Source of the DNA: Pomacea canaliculata
Taxonomy: Eukaryota > Mollusca > Gastropoda > Architaenioglossa > Ampullariidae
Length of the DNA: 64,000 nucleotides
Direction: 5' to 3'
NCBI RefSeq assembly: GCF_003073045.1
Contig: NC_037593.1
Location: 3,649,525-3,713,524 of the forward strand
Below, in pieces: positions 718 through 60,580 of the stretch (position 1 is its first letter; the number at the start of each line of letters is the position of its first letter). The notes below the pieces were generated by a model that searched no databases, had not been told where the DNA came from, and saw only the letters and a program-made list of their open reading frames with translations. A program made the translations under genes and the position numbers.

Positions 718-5390
<4,673 letters not shown>

Positions 5391-23400: not shown

Positions 23401-26400
23401 ATAAATGGTGAGTATCAAACTTTGTGCACATGGGTGAGAAGGTGAGAGCAAAGAACAATAAACAAAAGAGACTTTTCTAAACCCTTCCAAAATAGCTGAC
23501 CATCGTGAGTGAATGCCCCTGATGATAGTCTGACGAGTGTGAAAGAGTGCATGCTTGCATGTTTGTATGTACATTGGTGTGACTAGAGGAGGAGGGAAAG
23601 ATGTCTACCATGTTAATTGGCAATGCTTTACTAAGGCTTTTATAAACATAATGTTATATTTGAACATTTAAGACCCTGTTATGATTTTAGAATATTGTAC
23701 TTGATTGATTGCTCATTTTCATTTCTCCTTATGAAAAATGACAAACTTTCACGGTTAGTCCTTAAAGCCCCTTCTCAACTAGGCTAATGTTAAATAAACA
23801 TTGACCCAAGTGGCAAAGTTGTGTGCGACGGTCACAGGAAAACAATGTTGGTACGAACAGCTCAGGACTGTGGAATTTTGGTCAACATTCTAAGTGAAGA
23901 CTTGTTTGCTAATACATTTGCTTTATAGCACTCTAGAAGTTTGATGTTTTGGCACTCTTCTTGCTTAAGCAGAGCCTCAAGGAACATGATAAGGTCTGAT
24001 GATGCCATGGTGTGGTGATGTGGCTTCTGGGCTCAGTCAGCAGAAGGGCGAATGACTGCCTGAGCAATGAAGGGACTTCTTTTCTGCTGCTTACATTGAA
24101 ACAACTTACGCTGATTCTTGTTTGCGTTAAATGTACAAATTGGCTGTATTTTTCTTTTTTCTTTTTTTCTGCAGCTCCTAAGATCTTTCCAGTTGCCTTC
24201 AACATCATTAAACCCTTTTTAAGTGAGGATACTGCTAGAAAAATTCATGTTATGGGATGTGAGTACACAGATTGTGGTTTGTATTATATATAAATAATCC
24301 TGCTCTGAATTCTGTGGGAGCTTTGTATGTATATGAAAGTTGCAAGATTCAGTTGTTACATCTTTTGTTAACAACTGTATAAAGGTATAATTAAAGCTTT
24401 TTTTAATAAAAAGAAAAACTACTTTTAACTATTTCTCGAGAGATCGGATAAATTCAGATCCTTTTTTTATTGTCTTTTCTAGCCCAGTATAAAGAAACAC
24501 TGTTAAAGCACATAGATGCTGACCAGCTTCCTGAGCACTGGGGAGGTTCCCAGAGGGACCCTGATGGCAATCCTTACTGTGTTTCTAAAGTAAGCCCTTT
24601 TTATCAATTAAATTAATTTTTACCAGAAGCAATAGTGCATTTTTCTTTGTTTTGGTTTTTGTGTTTTTTTTTCTGGGGGTTGATCACTTTTAAGTAAGTG
24701 CTTTTATAGACTCATTAAAGAATACCTAGCCAAAGGGATCATCTGTATGATTGTATGCTGATGGAAATTATGACTGTTAATTTGCAATGATGTTTACTCT
24801 GCTTATCATGTCACAGCTTTCTTAGAGAACAAGCAAGAGCAGTGTTCTGTGGCCAGCAAAACGTTTTTTGGCTTTTGGGAAACAGCAGTAGACTATATTT
24901 TACCGAAAAGCATGTTCTTGTTTGCATGCACAATTAAGATGTGACAAGAAAATGTGCCCATAAAGAACTACACCCTTGTCTTGCTTCAGGTGTGTATGGG
25001 GGGAGAGATTCCGGAGGTGTACTATAGCCAAGACCTGTCTGATCTCAGTGGTTTCACAGAGGCCTCCATAGGGCGTGGCTCCACACTGAAAGTGCCGATA
25101 GAGCTGAATAAAAACAACAGCATTTTAAGGTAACATAATCGCCTCCAACAGAGCTGGAAATGTAGTAAAATTAGCATGCAAACCACAGATTCAATTTACT
25201 GTACTGCATCAAGAGAGAAGTTTGATTGTGATCATATATGCTTTCAAGGGCACAAATGATGCTCAGACACGGACATGCATAGACACCTCCCTCCGCATGC
25301 ATGTCTGTCTATCTATCTATTCCTCTTCATGCATCAGGTTGCACATAAGGCCTCAACCAGAGTCCGCCACCGATGTCGATCGGCTGAAACCCGCTCTAGG
25401 TGACCCCATGTCCAGCCCTTTCCCTTCATCTCCCTTTCCACTGTTCTTCTCCAAGTTTCCTTTGGGCGGCCTCGTTTTCTTCGGCCGTCTGGAGTCCATC
25501 GTAGGGCGACTCTGGAAAGGTCTGCTGTCTGCTGGCGGAGCACATGTCCAATCCATCGCCAACGCCTTCGTTGAACCTGCGTGGTGATGGACTCGGTTTC
25601 AGTTCTTCGGTGGAGTTCTTCGTTGGTGATGGTGTTTGGCCAAAAGATGTTAAGTATGCGCCTGAGGCATCTGTTTTGGAAGACGTCAAGCTTGTTACTG
25701 ATGGTTTTGGTCATCTTCCAAGATTCTGATCCGTAAAGGAGGGTGCTGATCACATTTGACTTGAAGATTCTCAGCTTGATCTTCTGGCTGATGTTTTTTG
25801 ACCTTCCATGTGCTCCTGAGTGAGGCGAAGGCCTGGCTGGCTTTCGCCAGTCGAGCTCGAATCTCCACCTCCGCATCCCCGGTGTTTGACATTTTGGACC
25901 CAAGATAGGTGAAACTGTAAACTTCCTCAATCTCTTCTCCATTTAGTTTGATGCTGTCTTGGACTCTGGCGTTCACTCTCATACTGTTTCTTTTTTTGCT
26001 GACCTTCAAGCCAAGGTTTCCAGCTCTTTCTGAGAAGGCCTTTGTTTTTTCCTGCATGTCTTGGTGGCGGTGGGACAGCAGGGCAATGTCATCAGCAAAG
26101 TCTATGTCTTCCAGTGTTGTTGTTGCTGTCATAGTCATGGTCCATCTGATCCCTCTCCTCTCACTGTCGGTGGAAGTCTTCATGATCCAGTCCATGGCCA
26201 GGATGAAGAGGAACGGCGACAGAATGCAGCCCTGCTTCACCCCGGTACTGACGTTGAAGGGGTCTGTGAGCTCTGTGTCACACACAACCTGGGATTTGAA
26301 ATCGCTGTACAGCATTGCAATGACCTGAACAAGTTTTGCAGGGACTCCATAATGCCTCAGGATCTTCCATAAGGATTCGCGGTGGATGCTGTCAAAAGCC

Positions 26401-27917
26401 TTCTCCAAGTCAATGAAATTGATGTACAGCGGTATGTTCCATTCGTTGCTCTGCTCCAGAATCTGTCGCAGAATGAAGATGTGTTCGGAGCAGGATCGCC
26501 CAGGGCGAAATCCTGCTTGCTGTGGTCGGAGGTCTTTCTCAAGAGTTGCCGTCAGTCTTGACAAAACAATCTTGCTGAAGACCTTGCTGGTGAGGGAAAG
26601 AAGTGTTATGCCCCTCCAATTATTGCAGTCTCCAAGATCTCCTTTCTTGGGTAACTTGAAGATGAGCCCTGTCTTCCACGCAACAGGGACCTGCCCTGAT
26701 TCCCAAATTTGCCTGAAGATTTCAGTCAGCTTGGGAGCTGTCACATTTATATCTGCTTTCAACATCTCTGCTGTTATTCCATCTGCCCCTGGTGCTTTGC
26801 CGCTCTTCATTGTCTTGACTGCTGCTGTCACTTCTTCCAGGCTTGGTGGGTCTGTGCAGATGTCAAGGTCTATAGCTGCTGGCTGGATGTCTGCAAGCTG
26901 AGGGGGATCTGGTCTGTTCAGAACCGACTCAAAATGTTCCCTCCAGCGCTGTAGTTTTCCTGCCTCGCATGCATGTACATGCCTCCATATACTTCCTACA
27001 CCCCTTCACGCACAGGCTTTAAATGTAGTTTCATTATTAGAGTCTACTATTATAATAATGAAAAAATTGATAGCCTTTTCCATCTATCCAGTTTAGGGAT
27101 TGGAATTAAAACTGACAAAATATTGTTTTCATGGCATGGTATAGACTTTATTATAGTAATCCTCAATCCGCAGTTTACCATAGATAACAGTTTCTGATAC
27201 ATGCAGAGAATACTTTAGTAATAATTTTAGTGAGTATACATATATATCCATTTTTTTTAAATGTTGACAATAGAACTGTGAAGTAGGAAATATTTGTTCT
27301 TAGATGGCAGTTCAAGACTGATGGCTTTGACATTGGCTTTGGTGTTTTTCGCAAAACTGTGGAAGGCCATCAGAAGACTGGAGACATGGAGGTCATTTTA
27401 CCGTCTGATCGTGTCAATAGTCACTTAGTGCCAGAAGATGGATCTGTCACTTGCAAGCAAAGTGGAACATGTGAGATGTTGTTTTATTGTGGCATGGGGA
27501 GGTTGTAAGAGAAGTAAATGTATGCTTTGTGCTTGTTTTCATCACATTAACTGATGCAACAAAATCAGTAAAATAAAGAATTTTGTAAAACAAGGAGCAA
27601 AGTACTTCCCTCCCCCACATCCACCATCAAAGTGAGACCCCTTGTTGTTTTGGTCACTTGTTAATCTTGTAGGACAATCTGATACTTGCAACTTCAGGAC
27701 ACTGGAGTAATTTTTCATATGACCTTTGGTTTTGTTTTTTTTTTTCTTGCCAGATGTGTTACGCTTCGACAACTCCTACAGTTGGGCCAGAAGCAAAAAA
27801 GTCTTCTACATTATTGAAGTTCTTGAGCCTGACACTGACATGGATCTGTCAAAGGATTTATCGTTTAGTAATTTGAATGATAATGATGCTGATTATGACT
27901 CAGAATCTTCTCATTGA
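17463..27917 (+). CDS. SEC14L2-like: SEC14-like protein (CRAL-TRIO plus GOLD), SEC14L2-type
   Basis: Eleven exons: 17463-17516, 18992-19061, 19725-19925, 20358-20452, 22493-22568, 23327-23407, 24175-24258, 24483-24589, 24990-25129, 27304-27470, 27754-27917 (TGA). They sum to 1239 nt, giving 412 residues, close to the vertebrate length. The protein starts [16 protein letters not shown] as in SEC14L2/3/4. Residues about 10-60 are the CRAL-TRIO N region (FVLRWLRARNFDL), about 75-245 the lipid-binding CRAL-TRIO fold ([33 protein letters not shown]), and about 260-380 a GOLD domain ([31 protein letters not shown]). Family members bind tocopherol, squalene or phosphoinositides and move lipids between membranes; the ligand here is unknown. 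The acidic C-terminal tail looks lineage-specific. Intron 3 has a GC donor (19926). Introns 1 and 4 share a repeated block and intron 9 carries a LINE. Confidence 0.95.
18186..18903 (+). repeat. Roughly 0.7-kb direct repeat, copy 1 (SEC14-like intron 1)
   Basis: This block aligns along its whole length with 20858-21566 in the same orientation. Shared landmarks include ACAATTTGACC, TCATTGGCTGACCTGTGCAT, AAAGTCAAAGAGTCAAGGAC and CTTTTAAACAAGCATT. Copies differ by scattered substitutions and small indels, so the duplication is not recent. I see no coding potential or terminal repeats. Confidence 0.9.
20054..20072. repeat. (GT)n microsatellite
   Basis: A short GT run in intron 3 of the SEC14-like gene. 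Confidence 0.75.
20722..21732 (+). repeat. Roughly 0.7-kb direct repeat, copy 2, flanked by a smaller duplication (intron 4)
   Basis: The second copy of the intron-1 block occupies 20858-21566. It is bracketed by a shorter direct duplication: 20722-20857 and 21577-21732 both run from an AAATTTGTA start through ATTTAATTTG and AACAAATTATTT to ATAATAATAGGATTTTT and CACATTTCCCA. The bracketing implies that the large block was inserted or copied together with a local tandem duplication. Confidence 0.8.
21733..22040. repeat. Degenerate interspersed repeat in SEC14-like intron 4
   Basis: After CACATTTCCCACATGGAGTC the sequence (stretches such as CAGTGTGCTTCAC and CCCCATTTTACAGAGAGACA) has the composition of a decayed SINE-like repeat with an internal CA-rich segment. 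Family assignment was not possible by eye. Confidence 0.35.
25305..26965 (-). mobile_element. 5'-truncated non-LTR retrotransposon (RTE-like LINE) in SEC14-like intron 9
   Basis: Antisense to the host gene. Reading the minus strand from 26965, the open frame enters at [15 protein letters not shown] and continues through reverse-transcriptase blocks: [18 protein letters not shown], a [10 protein letters not shown] catalytic block, [10 protein letters not shown], and FADDIALLS with the second catalytic pair. It ends with the WIGHVLRQ and [11 protein letters not shown]-terminal region and a stop at 25334. The endonuclease domain is missing. One frameshift near 25795-25810, in an A6 run, separates the RT part from the C-terminal part. 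The 3' end carries a short (TAGA)n-type tail. CGCATGCATGT flanks both sides (25294-25304 and 26966-26976) as an 11-bp target duplication. Clade assignment as RTE-like is by resemblance of the C-terminal motifs only. Confidence 0.85.
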
Positions 27918-48312: not shown

Positions 48313-51300
48313 ATGGCGGCGAAAAGGTGAGTTGTTGACAGCTTGTCACTCGTCAACACAAACACACACTATGGAACTTTATACAAAACATCCATATGAG
48401 TGGTGACATGAAATTTGGCGAATCTGTGTTAATATGTGTGTTGTATGTGAAGTTGGACACATCACCCAGACAAGTAGAGAAGGACAGGAAGACTCGCTCT
48501 CTCCCTCTGTGTGTGTACACGTGCGTGCGCCGGTCTGTGCCAAGGATATATCCAACAAAGAACATGCAGCTGTCTCCCTCTCCAAGCAGTTTTTCTTCTT
48601 TACTGCCCTCTCGTTGTGAGTGAGGGGCAGCGGTGTCCCCAGGTAGCTGTCAGGATCATGGATTAATTAAGTCTGAGAAGTTACGGCCATTGCAAACTAA
48701 TGTTTACTGCGGACATCGCATGCTCACCTCCCTGCCCGTCCTCTCAACCCTTTGCCTGTTGTCTTTATACAGGCGGTAATAAACCTAGTATTCACGCGCT
48801 AACGTATGTAATCAGGAGATCAAGCACACACACGCACATAGGTAATCAGGCACGCACGTGCACATAATCAGATGCTCACAGGGGTCATAGGGCATGCACT
48901 TACACAAGCTATCTTCCACAATTGCGCGTTCACGCACACACTCACTCGGATGCATGGTCATGAAGTTCACTAATTCATTGAATTAAATTAAACAGTGCAA
49001 GCCTTTGAAGAGTCATAGGTCCCGACATTTTAAAAAAAACCTATAATGAGCGAACATAAACCTGTCCTTCCTTGCTGGCCACACCTGTGATCAACGACAG
49101 ACACAAGGTTTATGGAAATCAGTGTGTATAATTTTATTCCCTTAATTCTCTTTTCGCCCAAGCTGTCTGTGTGTAGGGGGAGGAATCTGGAGGGTAAGAA
49201 AGTAGAAAAGACAGGTAAATGGGACGCCAGGTGTCGTTAACGGGCGACCTCGTGAACCTTTGTGAAGGCTGATCGATGACAGGTTGACATCCACACGTTT
49301 ACACTTTACCTGTGACTGGAGGTTGTATGGCCTCCGACTTACCCCGCAGCCACATTTACAGGAACAAAAATCATTCAGTTAATCTGTTTTAGAATATTTT
49401 TTAAAAGAAAGTCTGCAGGGGAGAATTTTAAGGAAGTCCTGGTTTTTTTTGTTTTTTGTTTGTTTTTTTCTCTCTCTCTCTCTACCATACCTCCTACTAT
49501 CCATATTTCGTCAAGCCTTTGCAGAAGCGAAGACGAGGGGACGGTTGGGAAAACAGAAAACGTGAGAATAATTAAATTTTAAAGGATATATCGGTTTAAT
49601 AGGCATATTTGTTGTTTTCATGCCTTTTTTTCTCGCAGGAAATCCCCGGTCGGTCAAGAGCTGTTGAGAATAATTTTAGAGTTTTTTATTTGTGTCCAGA
49701 AATCAACCCGGCTGAAGAAAATGCTGCTGTCCTCAGACCTGGAGTTTCTGATGGAAGCCCACAGTGGCATCAGCGCCCGCATCGCAGACGAAGCAGGTGA
49801 GTGCAGCCATCCCACCTGAATCATCTCCCCCTGCCACAGCACAATTCTCTCCCTTACCCTTTCAACAAGCCGACACGGCTGAACAAAGCAGACAATGACA
49901 GCCAGAGGCACTTGACACAGAGAAGAAAGGGAGAGGATTAAATTAAACAGAAGATGAAAGGGGCGAGAATGAAGGACAACAAATAAACAGAGAAAAATAA
50001 TATGGTCAAAGAAGAACATCTGCAAACACGCATGGTCTGTTACCATGGGGCATTCACAACAACGTCATTAAATATTTACCCGGTTAATTGTGTGCTTTAC
50101 TCTTTGGCCTATTAAAATTTTTATAACCCCCTCCATTCAAGGGAAAAAACTACAAACGAAGAGTTTTCAAAACTTCTTCAAATAATTTGTATGGACAGCG
50201 CTAAAGTTTTGTTGCTTTATGTATACCCACGGTGCTAGGTAGCTTTGCCTTAGTGAGAACAACAGGAGGTGATGCAAGTTCCCACTGGTTGTAAAAAGTT
50301 ATTTTTTTTTAATGATTGGGTAAAGCTCAGTGCACGATACTCTTTCTTCAAATCTGGGTAAGTATTCCGCTTCCATTCTCGATATGCAGGCCTACAAACA
50401 TTGCTATGTACAAAATGCAGTCCAGGTTGTGACCTCACCTTTGTACAGAGTTACACCTAATTAGCATGAGGTCCTAGCTCCCCCATTGACTGAGACCTTC
50501 ACATCCTATACATATCCAAGTACAATCCTGACGTCAGTGCTGCTGACCACCTTCTGCGCATAGTGATGTTTGAGGGCATGTATCTCGAGAACAGAAGAAG
50601 GGTGTTTGGGGTGTGTCGGGTGGAATAGCATTGTGCATCTAGCTTTATTGTTAGACAAATTGACATCTTACGAGTCCCTTAAATAATGAACAATTAATTG
50701 AACAACTAATTAATGAACAACTAACCCTGTGATTGGAAGGTTTCAAAGGAATCTGGGCCAGTGGTCTGTCCATATCAACACAGCTAGGAGTGCGCGACAG
50801 CAACGAGGCGTCGTGGACACAAGTGCTGGACGTGCTGGAGTTCATGAACGACGCTTGTGATGTCCCCATCCTCGTGGACGCCGACACAGGCTACGGCAAC
50901 TTCAACAACGCCCGGCGGCTGGTCCGAAAACTTGAAGAGCGTGGAATTGCGGGTACTTATGTCCAGGGGTATTTTGTGGATGTGGCGCCAATGATTTTTT
51001 GAGGTTTTTTCGGAAATGATTGAATGATAGAGTCTGGGTGATTGAGTGCTTAAGTCTGGGTGAATGTCTGTCAGCAAGAGAAAGAAATGAGTGGAGGGGA
51101 GAGAGAGAGGAAGAGAAGAAGAAAATCTGTCATTGTACATGATAAATTTTCTGGTGACATTTACACGAACTTCTTTTGTAACACCAGAGGACTCAGAAGA
51201 GTACCTTGTTAATAAGGAGTACTTTATTAAGCAATGAAATGAAATAGCATTTACAACTGCGGGGTTTGTTTGTTTGTAGAAGAGAACAAAAGAGTGTGAG

Positions 51301-53007
51301 CTTTTTTTAAAAAAAAAATAGAGATTAAATAGGGAACCACTTGTCTAGGTGCTGCTGTGGAGGACAAATTATTTCCAAAGACAAACTCCTTACTGGATGG
51401 ACGGCAACAACCCCTGGCAGACATCAAGGAATTTTCTCTTAAAATAAAGGTATATTTCCTAAAACCTGCTAGCTTTGAGGCCTGTAATGTCTTAGAGACC
51501 ATGTGTAATAACTAAGTGCTTTAGTCACAGCCACACTTAAAGCAGTTTTAATATTTATGGTTGTGGAGGTAAAATACTTCACCTTTCATAGTTTATTATT
51601 GTCTGTAGTGGTTTTAAATGCGTTACTTAGTTTCTTTATATTGAAACAACATACTGTTTCTCCTTTTTTTTTTACAAAGTACAGCCAACATTTTTTTTTG
51701 AAAGAAATATGCTTTTCAGTTTCTAAACCTGTCACAGACTTGTGTATCGCAACAAGAAGACGAAAGTAGATGATGTCAATAGGTCATAGTTTCCTACCCT
51801 TGTGATTAAGTCGTCAGCAAACACTATCAATCTAACCCTATAAAAATCATTAATATTTACAGTACACCCGTGACTGTAACTAATGAAGACTCTCTACAAA
51901 CTAAGTATTGAGTGTAAATAAAATATTTGGATTGTTTGCAGGCCATGAAGGACACGGCTCGTGACCCTGATTTCTGTGTAGTGGCGCGGGTTGAAGCCCT
52001 GATAGCAGGCTGGAGCATGGAGGAAGCCCTTAAACGGGCTGATGCATTCCTGGAGGCTGGAGCAGATGCCATTCTGATGCACAGCAAACGGAAAGATCCC
52101 TCTCAGATAGAGGAGTTCATGAAGCTGTGGAACAACAAGGTCGGTTCATTTGTGTGCTTGCAAGAAATATAGGTGTGTGCGTGCGTGTGAGAAAGAGAGA
52201 TGGAGTTATGCTCTCCTGTTTTTTTTTTACTTGACTAAATCCTTGAATTACATTCCATAGTAATTGTTAATGACAATGATGATTTATTCATTGACCAGAC
52301 ACCAAAAGAGCTCCATGAATATTTATAATTATGGAATTCCAGAGTTAAGTGTTTTTCTGTGGAAAGATAGGTTTACATGACGAATACTTATAATTTCTTA
52401 TACAAGTGTACCATTGTTTTGGTGAGTAAAAATGTGACTTATTTTCCCAAACATCAGGGGCCTGTTGTCTTGGTACCCACAACCTATTACACAACACCAA
52501 CAGATAAGTTTCGAGAATGGGGTGCATCAGTAATCATCTGGGCCAACCACTCTGTGCGGGCATCAGTTCTGGCCATGCAAAATTTGACCTCGAAAATCTA
52601 CCGTGATCAGTCAGTGGCTAACGTGGAAAAAGAGGTATAAACATATCAAGCTTCAGGACTTAGAATATATATTCAACCACGAAATATACTGCTTTTTTAA
52701 AACCATTTTATGCAAAGTTGAAAGTCACCAATAATCATTTGTAATAAACTTTGCTTCTTTTGCAGACAGTTAAAGGTATTCAATCAATGGAACTGTTTCA
52801 ATAACCTGAGATGTCACCTGCTTGCACAACAGCACACAATAATAAACTATTATAAATGGTTTTATGATAATCAGGATTTTTTTCTTTTAGTTCTTCCTAT
52901 CTTTTAATTTTTTTGCCTGCAGATTGCCACTGTAAAAGAGCTATTTCCGGCTGACACGTGACGATGAACTGAAAGAAGCAGAGGAAAAATATCTTCCCAA
53001 AGCTTAG
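48313..53007 (+). CDS. pepM: Phosphoenolpyruvate phosphomutase (PEP mutase)
   Basis: It isomerises phosphoenolpyruvate to phosphonopyruvate, the C-P bond-forming first step of phosphonate (2-aminoethylphosphonate) synthesis. Seven exons: 48313-48326, 49639-49796, 50740-50952, 51349-51449, 51942-52139, 52458-52634, 52923-53007. Exon 1 is only 14 nt (ATGGCGGCGAAAAG, then GTGAGT); it joins exon 2 in frame. All catalytic residues known from Mytilus PEP mutase are present at a constant offset of 19: Asp77, Asp104, Asp106, Glu133, Lys139, Asn141, Arg178, His209. Motifs are [35 protein letters not shown] and ILMHSK. The last exon has one extra C at 52947-52948: as written it stops at 52959-52961 after KELFPADT (299 residues), whereas family similarity (RDDEL, EEKYLPK) resumes in the next frame and ends with TAG at 53005. 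This is a sequencing error or a real C-terminal truncation. Confidence 0.92.
50310..50640. mobile_element. Palindromic MITE-like element, copy P3, in a PEP mutase intron
   Basis: Its left end (TTCTCGATATGCAGGCCTAC) is mirrored on the opposite strand near its right end (TTCTCGAGATACATGCCCTC). The interior AGTTACACCTAATTAGCATG and CCCCCATTGACTGAG match P1 in inverse orientation. It lies in intron 2 of PEP mutase. Ends are approximate. Confidence 0.55.
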
Positions 53008-57724: not shown

Positions 57725-60399
57725 TCACAATAAAGAGGGAAACAATTCTGTAAAAGACTCTTCCCAAGTGTCATCTCCCAATACAGAAGAAATGTCACTA
57801 CTAGGTGAAGGGGCATCGCTAAGATCAGAACTCATGCCTGAATCACTCAAGTTCTCTTGGGGGATGTCTTCATACACGGACAGGTCTCTAAAGCTAAGTA
57901 TTTCAAAACTGCTGACATCCTTCTTGGGGGATGGGGGAGTGCTGCCTTTACTTGGGTTGCGCTTCCTCTTGCGTGTTGGGGTTTTGTCTCCCATGACAAC
58001 TATGTTTGTTCCCACATTCATTACTTGCTGTTGCGGTTCAGAACGCACTGGGTGTTCCTGAGTCTGCTGCTGGTTATGCAGAGATGGATCTTGAAGCTGA
58101 ATCTCGGAAGTTTCTAGTTCTGCCAGGCCAAGCAGGCTCTCAAAGTCCAGAAACTCGGCACTTGGGTCATACTCCATGTCATAGCCCATATCCTGTTTGC
58201 TGATATCCTTACCGGTGGGCTTGGGTACCGATTCCAGAAGTCCATCTGCTGCCTTTGGCAGGAGTGACACCATATTATTGTTAGTGTTATCCCACATGCT
58301 GGAACCAGTTGTCAAAACTATAGACCCAATGCCCAAATCTTCTTCACAGCTTGCCACAAGCATCTGGCCAGAAGAAACTGTCTTTGGCCTGACAGACACT
58401 GGAAGTACCTTTTTAACTGTGGAGGACAGCACAAGACTTGGCTCAAGTGAACCACTACACATGGTATTGCTGGAGGAGTTGGAAGTACTACTAGCACTGG
58501 GAGCAGGAGGCTCCTCTTTGTAGTAAATGTGGTCAAACTTGATCAGTTCATTGAGGGATTCCAGCTCTGCTGCTGTGGGCCCCACCAATCCTGTGTCTTG
58601 TGGCACCTCTCCAAAGTTGGCTCCAGAGCTACTGTGTTCTGTGAAGAGCGTCGTGCTGGACGTGTCTGTTTGCGCTTCCGGCTTGATCCCTCCACTTTCT
58701 GCAGTGAGCTGTTGTAGCAGACTAAGCAGAGCATCAGACTGGAAACAAAGAGACCCCAAAAATTATGTATAGACAATGTGAATATTTTAATATGAGTGAA
58801 ATTTAAAATGTTAAGTACCCTTATACATAAACACCTTAGAAAGCAAGTAGCTACACTCTTTAAATCATTTTCAGTAGGATCCAGTTTACCAATTAACTAT
58901 TTTATTATTATTATTTTCTCATCTACATTTTGCTACCTGTTCAGCAAAATAGACCCAATTTTCACCATTCAAAAAGCTCCAAATACATTCTTGTCCAATT
59001 AATGTTTAATACAATAAAATAAGTCTAAGTAAAAATACTTGTCCTGATTTTTCCCTGATTTGAAAAAACATCATAAATGGAAGTTTCAAATGATCACTAA
59101 GACACACACCCCTCAAGATGTGTGAAATCTCTCTTACCTCATTGTCAGAGCACAGGCCGCGTAGTGCATCATCAAGCGAGACAGAGCCTGAATCTGTTCC
59201 TTCGGCAGAGAAACAGCAGGTACTGCAGACCCGGGGGAATCAGGTTCTGTCTTGCAAAATAATGAACTGGCATCTGTGCTGGTGATTCTGTTGCCTGATG
59301 CAGCTGTGTTTGCTGGAGGTGTAGTCACTGGGGAATTTAAGCTTTTTTTTAAACGACAGTTTTCTTGCTGAAGAGATGATCGGCTGACACGAAGTTCTGC
59401 ATTCTCTTTCATCAGTTGTCTGTTCTGCTCCTGTAGCTGTGCAACCTTCTCTTCCAGCTCCACCATCAGGGCTTTTTTCCTGTCACGAGCTGTTTGTGCT
59501 GCTACACGATTCTTCAGCTTCCTATAATCAGAAAAGCTTAGTTTAGTATTTAATGAATAAATCATTTTCTCTAATTTGATCACAATGATTTTAGCCAACA
59601 ATAGGTGCTCTTTTCATATTCTGCCATTCTGAATTAAATTTAGTACCTGTAACAGATATGTAACTTAGGTTTATTCTCTCATGTTGAGTCTGCCTCCCCT
59701 TAACTTTCTGGTGCAAGATCTACATAAATCATAATTGTACTGATTTTCAGCCTAATCATAAACCAACATGACCTGGTTTCATAATATAGTGCTAATGCCT
59801 GCTGCAACATGTATAAGGAGATTAATTCTGCCAAAAAATCAATTACACAAGAGCAATGGAGGTCTTACATACTTTTAGAAAGTACTCAGCTCCAGCCCCT
59901 CCCGCACAAACAATGAAACAATTTGAATAAATATTTTCAGGGATCTAAAATTAGAATATTTTTTGTACTTCTGGAATAACCGCCCGAAGCTGTTAGAGTT
60001 ACATATAACGTCAGCTAAAAAAACCGCTATCAGCCTTTTGCGTCACCGCCACGTCAGCGCTGTTGCAACTGTGAACACTTCCCGTTATCGACATTTTGAC
60101 ATCCTGGTTCTAGAAGCCACCACGCCCACAAAAATGACACTAACCCTGCCACGGCCAAAAATCATTCAACGGTTTTAATATATGACACAATATTTACGAT
60201 CATAAGCCTAGCGATAAATAAACCTTACTTACCGTCTCAGTATTTTTTCATCGGCTGACAGATGTGTCAGTCTCTTTCTTTTCCTCGGCTGCCCACCGCC
60301 ATCAGTGAACACCTCTTCGATATCTGACATCGCGAACGAATTCACGTTTTTTGTTCCGAAAGCGGTGATGACAATTGCCTTTGGTGGAAGCAGCGACAT
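57725..60399 (-). CDS. XBP1: X-box binding protein 1, with IRE1-spliced and unspliced frames
   Basis: A bZIP transcription factor, the effector of the IRE1 arm of the unfolded protein response. Exons: 60399-60233 (ATG after an in-frame TGA), 59521-59138, 58738-57725 (TGA). Residues about 56-115 are the basic region and zipper (KLKNRVAAQTARDRKKA, then leucine heptads). Without IRE1 cleavage the frame gives XBP1u, 248 residues, ending at 58543. Removing the predicted 20-nt segment 59225-59206 shifts into the long frame and gives XBP1s, 514 residues. This frame has the expected GSAE junction as in vertebrates, the SDNESDALLSLLQQL and ESLNELIKFDHIYY blocks, and an acidic C-terminal activation domain ending WEESFTELFPSLL. 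XBP1s is longer than human (376) because of a Ser/Gln-rich middle. Both nuclear introns are GT-AG. Confidence 0.95.
58543..58738 (-). CDS. XBP1: XBP1u-specific C-terminus, overlapping the XBP1s frame
   Basis: In the unspliced reading frame the last exon encodes 65 residues and ends in WGPQQQSWNPSMN before the stop. Vertebrate XBP1u ends with the translational arrest peptide WGRHQPSWKPLMN. The preceding stretch across the nuclear intron (LMMHYAACALTM joined to SLMLCLVCY) is strongly hydrophobic, in the place of the vertebrate HR2 segment that brings the nascent chain and its mRNA to the ER membrane. The same nucleotides encode XBP1s in the other frame. Confidence 0.75.
59194..59233 (-). promoter_or_regulatory. 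XBP1: Paired IRE1 cleavage hairpins and 20-nt cytosolic intron of XBP1
   Basis: Two abutting RNA stem-loops are readable on the minus strand. The first (59233-59217) has a 5-bp stem CGGGU/ACCUG and a 7-nt loop CUG|CAGU. The second (59216-59194) has an 8-bp stem CUGUUUCU/AGGAACAG and a 7-nt loop CUG|CCGA. Both loops fit the IRE1 consensus CNG|CNGN. Cleavage would release 59225-59206, 20 nt, which begins CAG and ends CUCUG like the human 26-nt intron. Confidence 0.85.
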
Positions 60400-60535
60400 T
60401 TTCACTGTCACTGTCAATGCCTGGTCAGCATCAAGTCGTCAAGTGCTACCGTCGGGGGGTGAAAAATCACGAGCGCTTCGCTTTCATGTCATCTTTCCTG
60501 CTTCGTCCTCCCAAATGATAGCTGGGGAAGGCTGA

Positions 60536-60554
60536 CGTGGTCTGTATCGATTGG
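60536..60554 (-). promoter_or_regulatory. ER stress response element (ERSE)
   Basis: On the XBP1 sense strand the sequence reads CCAAT, nine bases, CCACG, the exact ERSE consensus bound by NF-Y with ATF6 or XBP1. It lies 137 bp upstream of the XBP1 start codon. The CCACG half overlaps a TGACGTGG (UPRE-type) site on the plus strand at 60533-60540. Confidence 0.75.
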
Positions 60555-60564
60555 TCGTTGCTGC

Positions 60565-60580
60565 TGACGTCATGTGACGT
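60565..60580. promoter_or_regulatory. CRE-like TGACGTCA and adjacent TGACGT
   Basis: A palindromic TGACGTCA (60565-60572) is followed by TGACGT (60575-60580). A second inverted CCAAT lies at 60593-60597. ATF/CREB and XBP1-type bZIP factors bind such sites. Confidence 0.5.

Follow-up and report, generated by a model that had tools for sequence, protein, structure and literature searches.

Does the minus-strand gene at 57725-60399 of this Pomacea canaliculata DNA (64,000 nucleotides, analysed as a whole and hereafter called the window) encode an XBP1 transcription factor, and does its mRNA carry an intron of only 20 nt to be removed by IRE1, as the initial annotation proposed? We consider it highly probable (about 0.93) that the gene is an XBP1 with a 20-nt intron cut by IRE1, the removal of which would change the reading frame to that of XBP1s, and that the unspliced product, XBP1u, carries a tail for pausing and membrane targeting. 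Papers are cited below by PMC identifier.

The gene consists of three coding exons with GT-AG borders, as read from the translation and the sense of the splice sites:

60399-60233, minus strand: XBP1 exon 1, coding part, with the donor GTAAGT (translation, donor site)
59521-59138, minus strand: XBP1 exon 2, with the bZIP domain and the candidate IRE1 intron (translation; PF00170, 4.5e-10)
58738-57725, minus strand: XBP1 exon 3, coding part, ending at the XBP1s stop 57727-57725 (translation)

Translated without IRE1 splicing, these exons give the XBP1u frame of 248 aa, with its stop at 58545-58543; when 20 nt (59225-59206) are taken out, the XBP1s frame of 514 aa is obtained, with a CDS of 1545 nt. 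As in IRE1-type Hac1/Xbp1 introns in general, excision changes the frame towards a longer bZIP protein (from 248 to 514 aa), and the frame-switch arithmetic of the initial annotation holds. That the total CDS length becomes a multiple of three, which had been counted in its favour, is true but follows from the frame change; hence, it is no independent evidence. The bZIP domain (Pfam PF00170, 4.5e-10) occupies residues 52-110, upstream of the frame change as in metazoan XBP1, and this region, like several other parts of the long frame, probably resembles human XBP1s. Frames, exon joins and the bZIP match agree with the naming of the gene as XBP1. Pattern scans of viral and bacterial collections (39 viral and 122 bacterial-contig matches) retrieved no relevant relatives; one of the viral matches (L001) is a coiled-coil stretch of an apparent phage tail protein and is irrelevant. 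A search of the PDB with XBP1u returned 52 sequences with E values of no more than 10, mostly bZIP and coiled-coil chains, with no arrest-peptide chain among them.

The frame change falls within exon 2, where two hairpins bracket the predicted intron (a slash in a loop marks the cut):

59217..59233, minus strand: 5' hairpin, with a 5-bp stem of CGGGU and ACCUG (one G-U) and the loop CUG/CAGU at 59228-59222 (stem scan, folding)
59194..59216, minus strand: 3' hairpin, with an 8-bp stem of CUGUUUCU and AGGAACAG (one U-G) and the loop CUG/CCGA at 59208-59202 (stem scan, folding)
59206..59225, minus strand: predicted 20-nt IRE1 intron, CAGUACCUGCUGUUUCUCUG (Rfam alignment, translation, loop scan)

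Cuts after the third base of each loop bracket 20 nt (59225-59206), which is the excised length that had been predicted, and this piece is composed of 4 loop, 5 stem, 8 stem and 3 loop bases. The twin 7-nt loops on back-to-back stems are present as described: zero bases separate the two hairpins, which adjoin without a linker and fill 59233-59194 exactly. Two 7-nt CNG/CNGN loops on stems, with a G/C cut, are those of IRE1-type introns in general, the stems here being different from the minimum-energy fold. The initial annotation had called both loops perfect, which is correct with respect to CNG/CNGN; with respect to the CNG/CAGN rule of mammalian XBP1 loops (PMC8674358), the 5' loop fits, whereas the 3' loop, CUGCCGA, has no CAG, lacking the A. 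CNGCNGN sites are common in the window (170 per strand), and a stem of at least 4 bp accompanies 5 of them on each strand; a twin pair 14-32 nt apart occurs once, at XBP1, and in none of 60 first-order Markov shuffles, both strands being considered.

The excised piece starts with CAG and ends with CUCUG, as had been noted, and the human XBP1 intron has the same ends. The string GSAE at the junction, which had been likened to human XBP1s, does not bear on the splice: in human XBP1 the whole of GSAE precedes the 5' cut, and both isoforms contain it. The parallel is coincidental and the junction is not tested by it; we rejected it as splice evidence. Since the removal of 20 nt shifts the frame by whatever route, a spliceosomal micro-intron or an alternative splice, rather than IRE1, might be held responsible for the change; the piece, however, starts with CA and ends with UG instead of GU-AG, and 20 nt is, as is generally known, far below the usual spliceosomal removal, so that we regard this explanation as exceedingly improbable.

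The predicted IRE1 intron finds a counterpart in an Rfam model:

59182..59249, minus strand: match to Rfam RF04247 (Hac1/Xbp1 intron), including the closing helix (Rfam scan)

RF04247 picks the same place as the twin hairpins with 30.6 bits (E 0.0045 for 3 kb against all 4227 Rfam families; E = 0.0006 when 401 bases were searched), and 11 of the 13 positions of its closing helix are paired at XBP1. The layout of a closing helix with two hairpins bearing 7-nt loops is common to both, whereas 22 nt separate the cuts in the model consensus (counted on the alignment) against 20 here. The gathering score of RF04247, 41, is not reached, and no Rfam family reaches gathering anywhere in the window. 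Because the score lies below this cut-off, the XBP1 element is not filed as a member of RF04247, though it looks like one and should work like one.

A third full IRE1 consensus, CUG/CUGU, is located inside the predicted intron (59219-59213, minus strand). It fits CNG/CNGN, and if it were cut together with the 3' loop, 11 nt would be removed, which likewise opens the XBP1s frame, in this case with 517 aa; such a splice might replace the 20-nt one, or both outcomes might occur. This middle site, however, forms no separate stem (0 bp) and sits in the stems of both hairpins, and in the RF04247 alignment the outer pair takes the place of the two model loops. We judge its use very unlikely, and the outer pair of cuts, releasing 20 nt, is retained in what follows.

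Single-sequence folding gave a mixed picture of the twin hairpins. A fold of 63 nt did not stand out from shuffles (z -0.75), 46 of 200 being as good. In a 72-nt piece the probability was 0.03 for the 5' stem and 0.60-0.96 for the 3' stem; when at least 10 nt were added per side, the values became 0.40-0.42 and 0.30-0.48, respectively. The minimum-energy fold differs from the twin hairpins and is lower by 2.0-2.2 kcal/mol at 68-71 nt and by 1.3-1.5 kcal/mol at 91-161 nt; with added context, it pairs both exon flanks near the cut sites. Folding of this kind was rejected as proof of the twin hairpins, which are not favoured at 63 nt and each stem of which makes up less than half of the ensemble with longer flanks.

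The excess of fold stability around the splice site is modest. With flanks of 45, 60, 75 and 90 nt, the numbers of shuffles out of 300 that reach the same stability are 1, 1, 0 and 1, respectively (z -2.7 to -2.9); with 25-nt flanks, the number is 11 of 300 (z -1.77). Among 130-nt segments taken along the coding mRNA in 20-nt steps, the top two ranks belong to those beginning at 400 and at 420, respectively, both of which contain the intron (at 463); their z values are only -1.97 and -1.82 (60 shuffles each). Once the intron is out, folding predicts a single duplex between the exon flanks, of -24.9 kcal/mol (28-nt arms), and this prediction agrees with the "zipper" model for XBP1 that Peschek reportedly proposed in 2015, as mentioned in PMC6037481. 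Imposing the twin hairpins gave -51.1 kcal/mol against a free minimum of -52.6 kcal/mol, together with the following feature:

59150..59279, minus strand: predicted extended outer helix of 33 bp, enclosing both hairpins (folding with the twin hairpins imposed)

This predicted helix is longer than the closing helix of RF04247.

The unspliced product provides evidence that the initial annotation had missed and that is stronger than the points it raised. The features concerned are:

58543..59205, minus strand: 87-residue XBP1u tail lying over the XBP1s frame, with exonic parts 59205-59138 and 58738-58543 (translation, recoding)
59137-58739, minus strand: spliceosomal intron inside the span of the XBP1u tail
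58543..58590, minus strand: XBP1u C-terminal sequence resembling a pausing peptide, DWWGPQQQSWNPSMN, plus stop (translation, recoding; residue list of PMC8152447)

Past the intron, the unspliced frame is open for 87 codons, a condition kept by 615 of 40,000 synonymous recodings of XBP1s; the third frame, in reality closed by stops, is open in 5 of 40,000. The most hydrophobic 19-mer of XBP1u, at residues 172-190, has a hydropathy of 1.85, while the best of XBP1s reaches 1.09; a hydrophobic HR2-like segment is present in XBP1u and absent in XBP1s, as in metazoan XBP1, and, taken as residues 172-192, it ends 56 residues from the XBP1u C-terminus. An equally hydrophobic segment arises in 1,472 of 40,000 recodings; being only mildly unusual, hydrophobicity alone is weak as evidence of HR2 and was not used as such.

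For the C-terminal peptide, PMC8152447 draws on fly, zebrafish, mouse and human to name six residues as the likeliest to be critical for stalling, namely Pro at -2, Trp at -4, Ser/Ala at -5, Glu (as printed) at -7, Gly at -10 and Trp at -11; we read the Glu at -7 as Gln, human residue 253. All six are present in the XBP1u tail, in which Met and Asn would occupy the P site and the A site, respectively. The six residues and the stop, on a list that we met after the tail had been seen, are kept in 101 of 100,000 recodings drawn with the codon usage of the gene and in 28 of 100,000 drawn uniformly; with the additional condition that the frame be open throughout, the figures fall to 1 and 0 of 100,000, respectively. 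An earlier test of the retention of seven residues (19 of 40,000 with stop) was set aside, the residues having been chosen once their match to the human sequence had been seen. Because recoding so rarely keeps the six residues and the stop, the unspliced tail looks selected.

Not every position agrees with the human peptide: those of human L246, Y241 and P244 are occupied here by Gln, Arg and Lys, and those of R251 and H252 by Pro and Gln. Among the eight positions given as optimal for arrest in PMC6624018 (Y241, P244, W249 to H252, W256 and P258), four are kept, as counted on the sequence. At position 246, where a Leu might be expected of a metazoan XBP1, the tail thus has Gln. According to PMC4138184, the mutation L246A abolishes pausing in human XBP1u, and the residue is conserved in four vertebrates and Drosophila, while section 11 of PMC6624018 counts it among the positions not optimal for arrest; we have taken position 246 as variable and not defining.

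The tail also bears on whether the frame change could be an assembly indel or the mark of a dying gene, with the loops arising by chance, a suspicion to which the availability of a single assembled sequence lends itself. The unspliced frame looks constrained, which an assembly error would not produce; moreover, the twin hairpins are absent from the 60 shuffles and XBP1s runs for 514 codons. The odds of such an artefact or of such decay appear negligible.

With an IRE1-spliced XBP1 as the preferred reading, the following sequence of events can be depicted. In unstressed cells, the mRNA would be translated as XBP1u; the nascent chain would expose the HR2-like hydrophobic segment (residues 172-192), and the C-terminal peptide would pause the ribosome at Met-Asn, so that the mRNA would be delivered to the ER membrane. 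When the ER is stressed, IRE1 would cut both 7-nt loops, the flanking exons would pair together and release the 20-nt intron, and a tRNA ligase, presumably of the RtcB type, would join the exons; translation would then shift frame and yield XBP1s (514 aa), the active bZIP factor.

Upstream of the gene, a motif search found one further element:

60536..60554, minus strand: perfect ERSE, CCAAT-N9-CCACG, 137 bases upstream of the XBP1 ATG (motif search)

An ERSE occurs in 15 of 20,000 shuffled 500-nt promoters, and on average 0.03 times per shuffle of the whole window (100 shuffles, both strands). The ERSE of XBP1 shares bases with a UPRE-type sequence, TGACGTGG, at 60533-60540; also upstream of the gene, at 60565-60572, lies a CRE palindrome, TGACGTCA. 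Human XBP1 also has an ERSE. From these motifs, self-induction of XBP1 in ER stress is probable.

Other parts of the window hold the following:

50733-52640, plus strand: three ORFs matching phosphoenolpyruvate mutase (PF13714; the third below the curated cut-off)
25334-26831, minus strand: reverse transcriptase ORF (RVT_1, 9.6e-33, 25695-26831) and an overlapping ORF with a weak, sub-cut-off match to DUF6451, probably a retroelement
3768-4124, plus strand: ORF matching cytochrome P450 (PF00067, 5.2e-21), probably one exon

A piece of the first phosphoenolpyruvate mutase ORF or exon (50733 onward) is identical at 62 of 74 residues to PDB 1m1b, which we take to come from the mussel Mytilus edulis; on this indirect ground, the label "molluscan" that the initial annotation gave to the XBP1 gene is likely.

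Regarding intron length, the Xbp1 intron of Drosophila has 23 nt, and the main survey of Hac1/Xbp1 introns is reportedly that of Hooks and Griffiths-Jones in 2011. Among the matches listed in the literature on molluscs, invertebrates and intron length, including the excerpt of PMC13362341, none gave the length of a molluscan XBP1 intron; that survey, which is outside this scope, may include a mollusc or an animal intron of 20 nt. According to PMC2606855, the intron measures 26 nt in mammals and 23 nt in C. elegans; among fungi, it measures 19 nt in Candida albicans and 20 nt in the filamentous species, and PMC6627864 gives 20 nt for Aspergillus niger, A. nidulans and Trichoderma reesei. To present 20 nt as a shorter class is to overstate the case: 20 nt is not new for IRE1 introns as such, because filamentous fungi have it, and the intron of Candida albicans is shorter still, at 19 nt (PMC6627864, PMC2606855).

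The device has been described mainly in vertebrates, flies, worms and fungi, and the locus adds a case of lophotrochozoan type. Provided that the splice does occur, an intron can be reduced to nothing but the halves of its loops and stems, and the spacing of IRE1 cuts would be set by the stems and by the frame rule (remainder 2), not by a fixed length. Judging from the overlap of the XBP1u tail with the XBP1s frame, selection seems to maintain the pausing peptide in this gene as well. At positions 246, 247, 251, 252 and 254 (human numbering) its residues are not the human ones, which offers a natural test of the published map of mutations in human XBP1u arrest. A broader reading is offered tentatively, as one that we find somewhat more doubtful than convincing: an animal XBP1 intron would have the fungal length of 20 nt, consisting only of loop and stem halves (4+5+8+3) with no linker and with a departure from the CAG rule in the 3' loop; its RNA, according to the predictions, would be poised almost equally between twin hairpins ready to be cut and an already zipped duplex of the exons, under a 33-bp helix; and, together with the intact pausing tail, this might mean that the ancestor shared by molluscs, flies and vertebrates already had the complete XBP1u delivery device.

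To our knowledge, the hacA/hac1 genes of filamentous fungi have no XBP1u-type tail. They are alike in having a 20-nt intron excised in ER stress (PMC2606855, PMC6627864) and unlike in being fungal genes, some of which are also controlled by changes in the 5' leader (PMC6627864). Xbp1 of Drosophila and C. elegans shares the same mechanism, with 23 nt instead of the 20 found here. The HR2 and the pausing region have already been reported as common to vertebrates and Drosophila (PMC4138184); the pause site Met-Asn is here as in vertebrates, whereas the fly differs (PMC8152447), and the fly is said to keep the Leu (L246) that is missing from the present tail (PMC4138184). Compared with vertebrate XBP1, several residues of the pausing peptide are changed, the intron has 20 nt rather than 26, the hairpins have no linker between them, and the 3' loop is CUG/CCGA instead of CNG/CAGN; the two are alike in the twin 7-nt loops with G/C cuts, the frame change, the bZIP domain upstream of it and the XBP1u tail with HR2 and pausing peptide.
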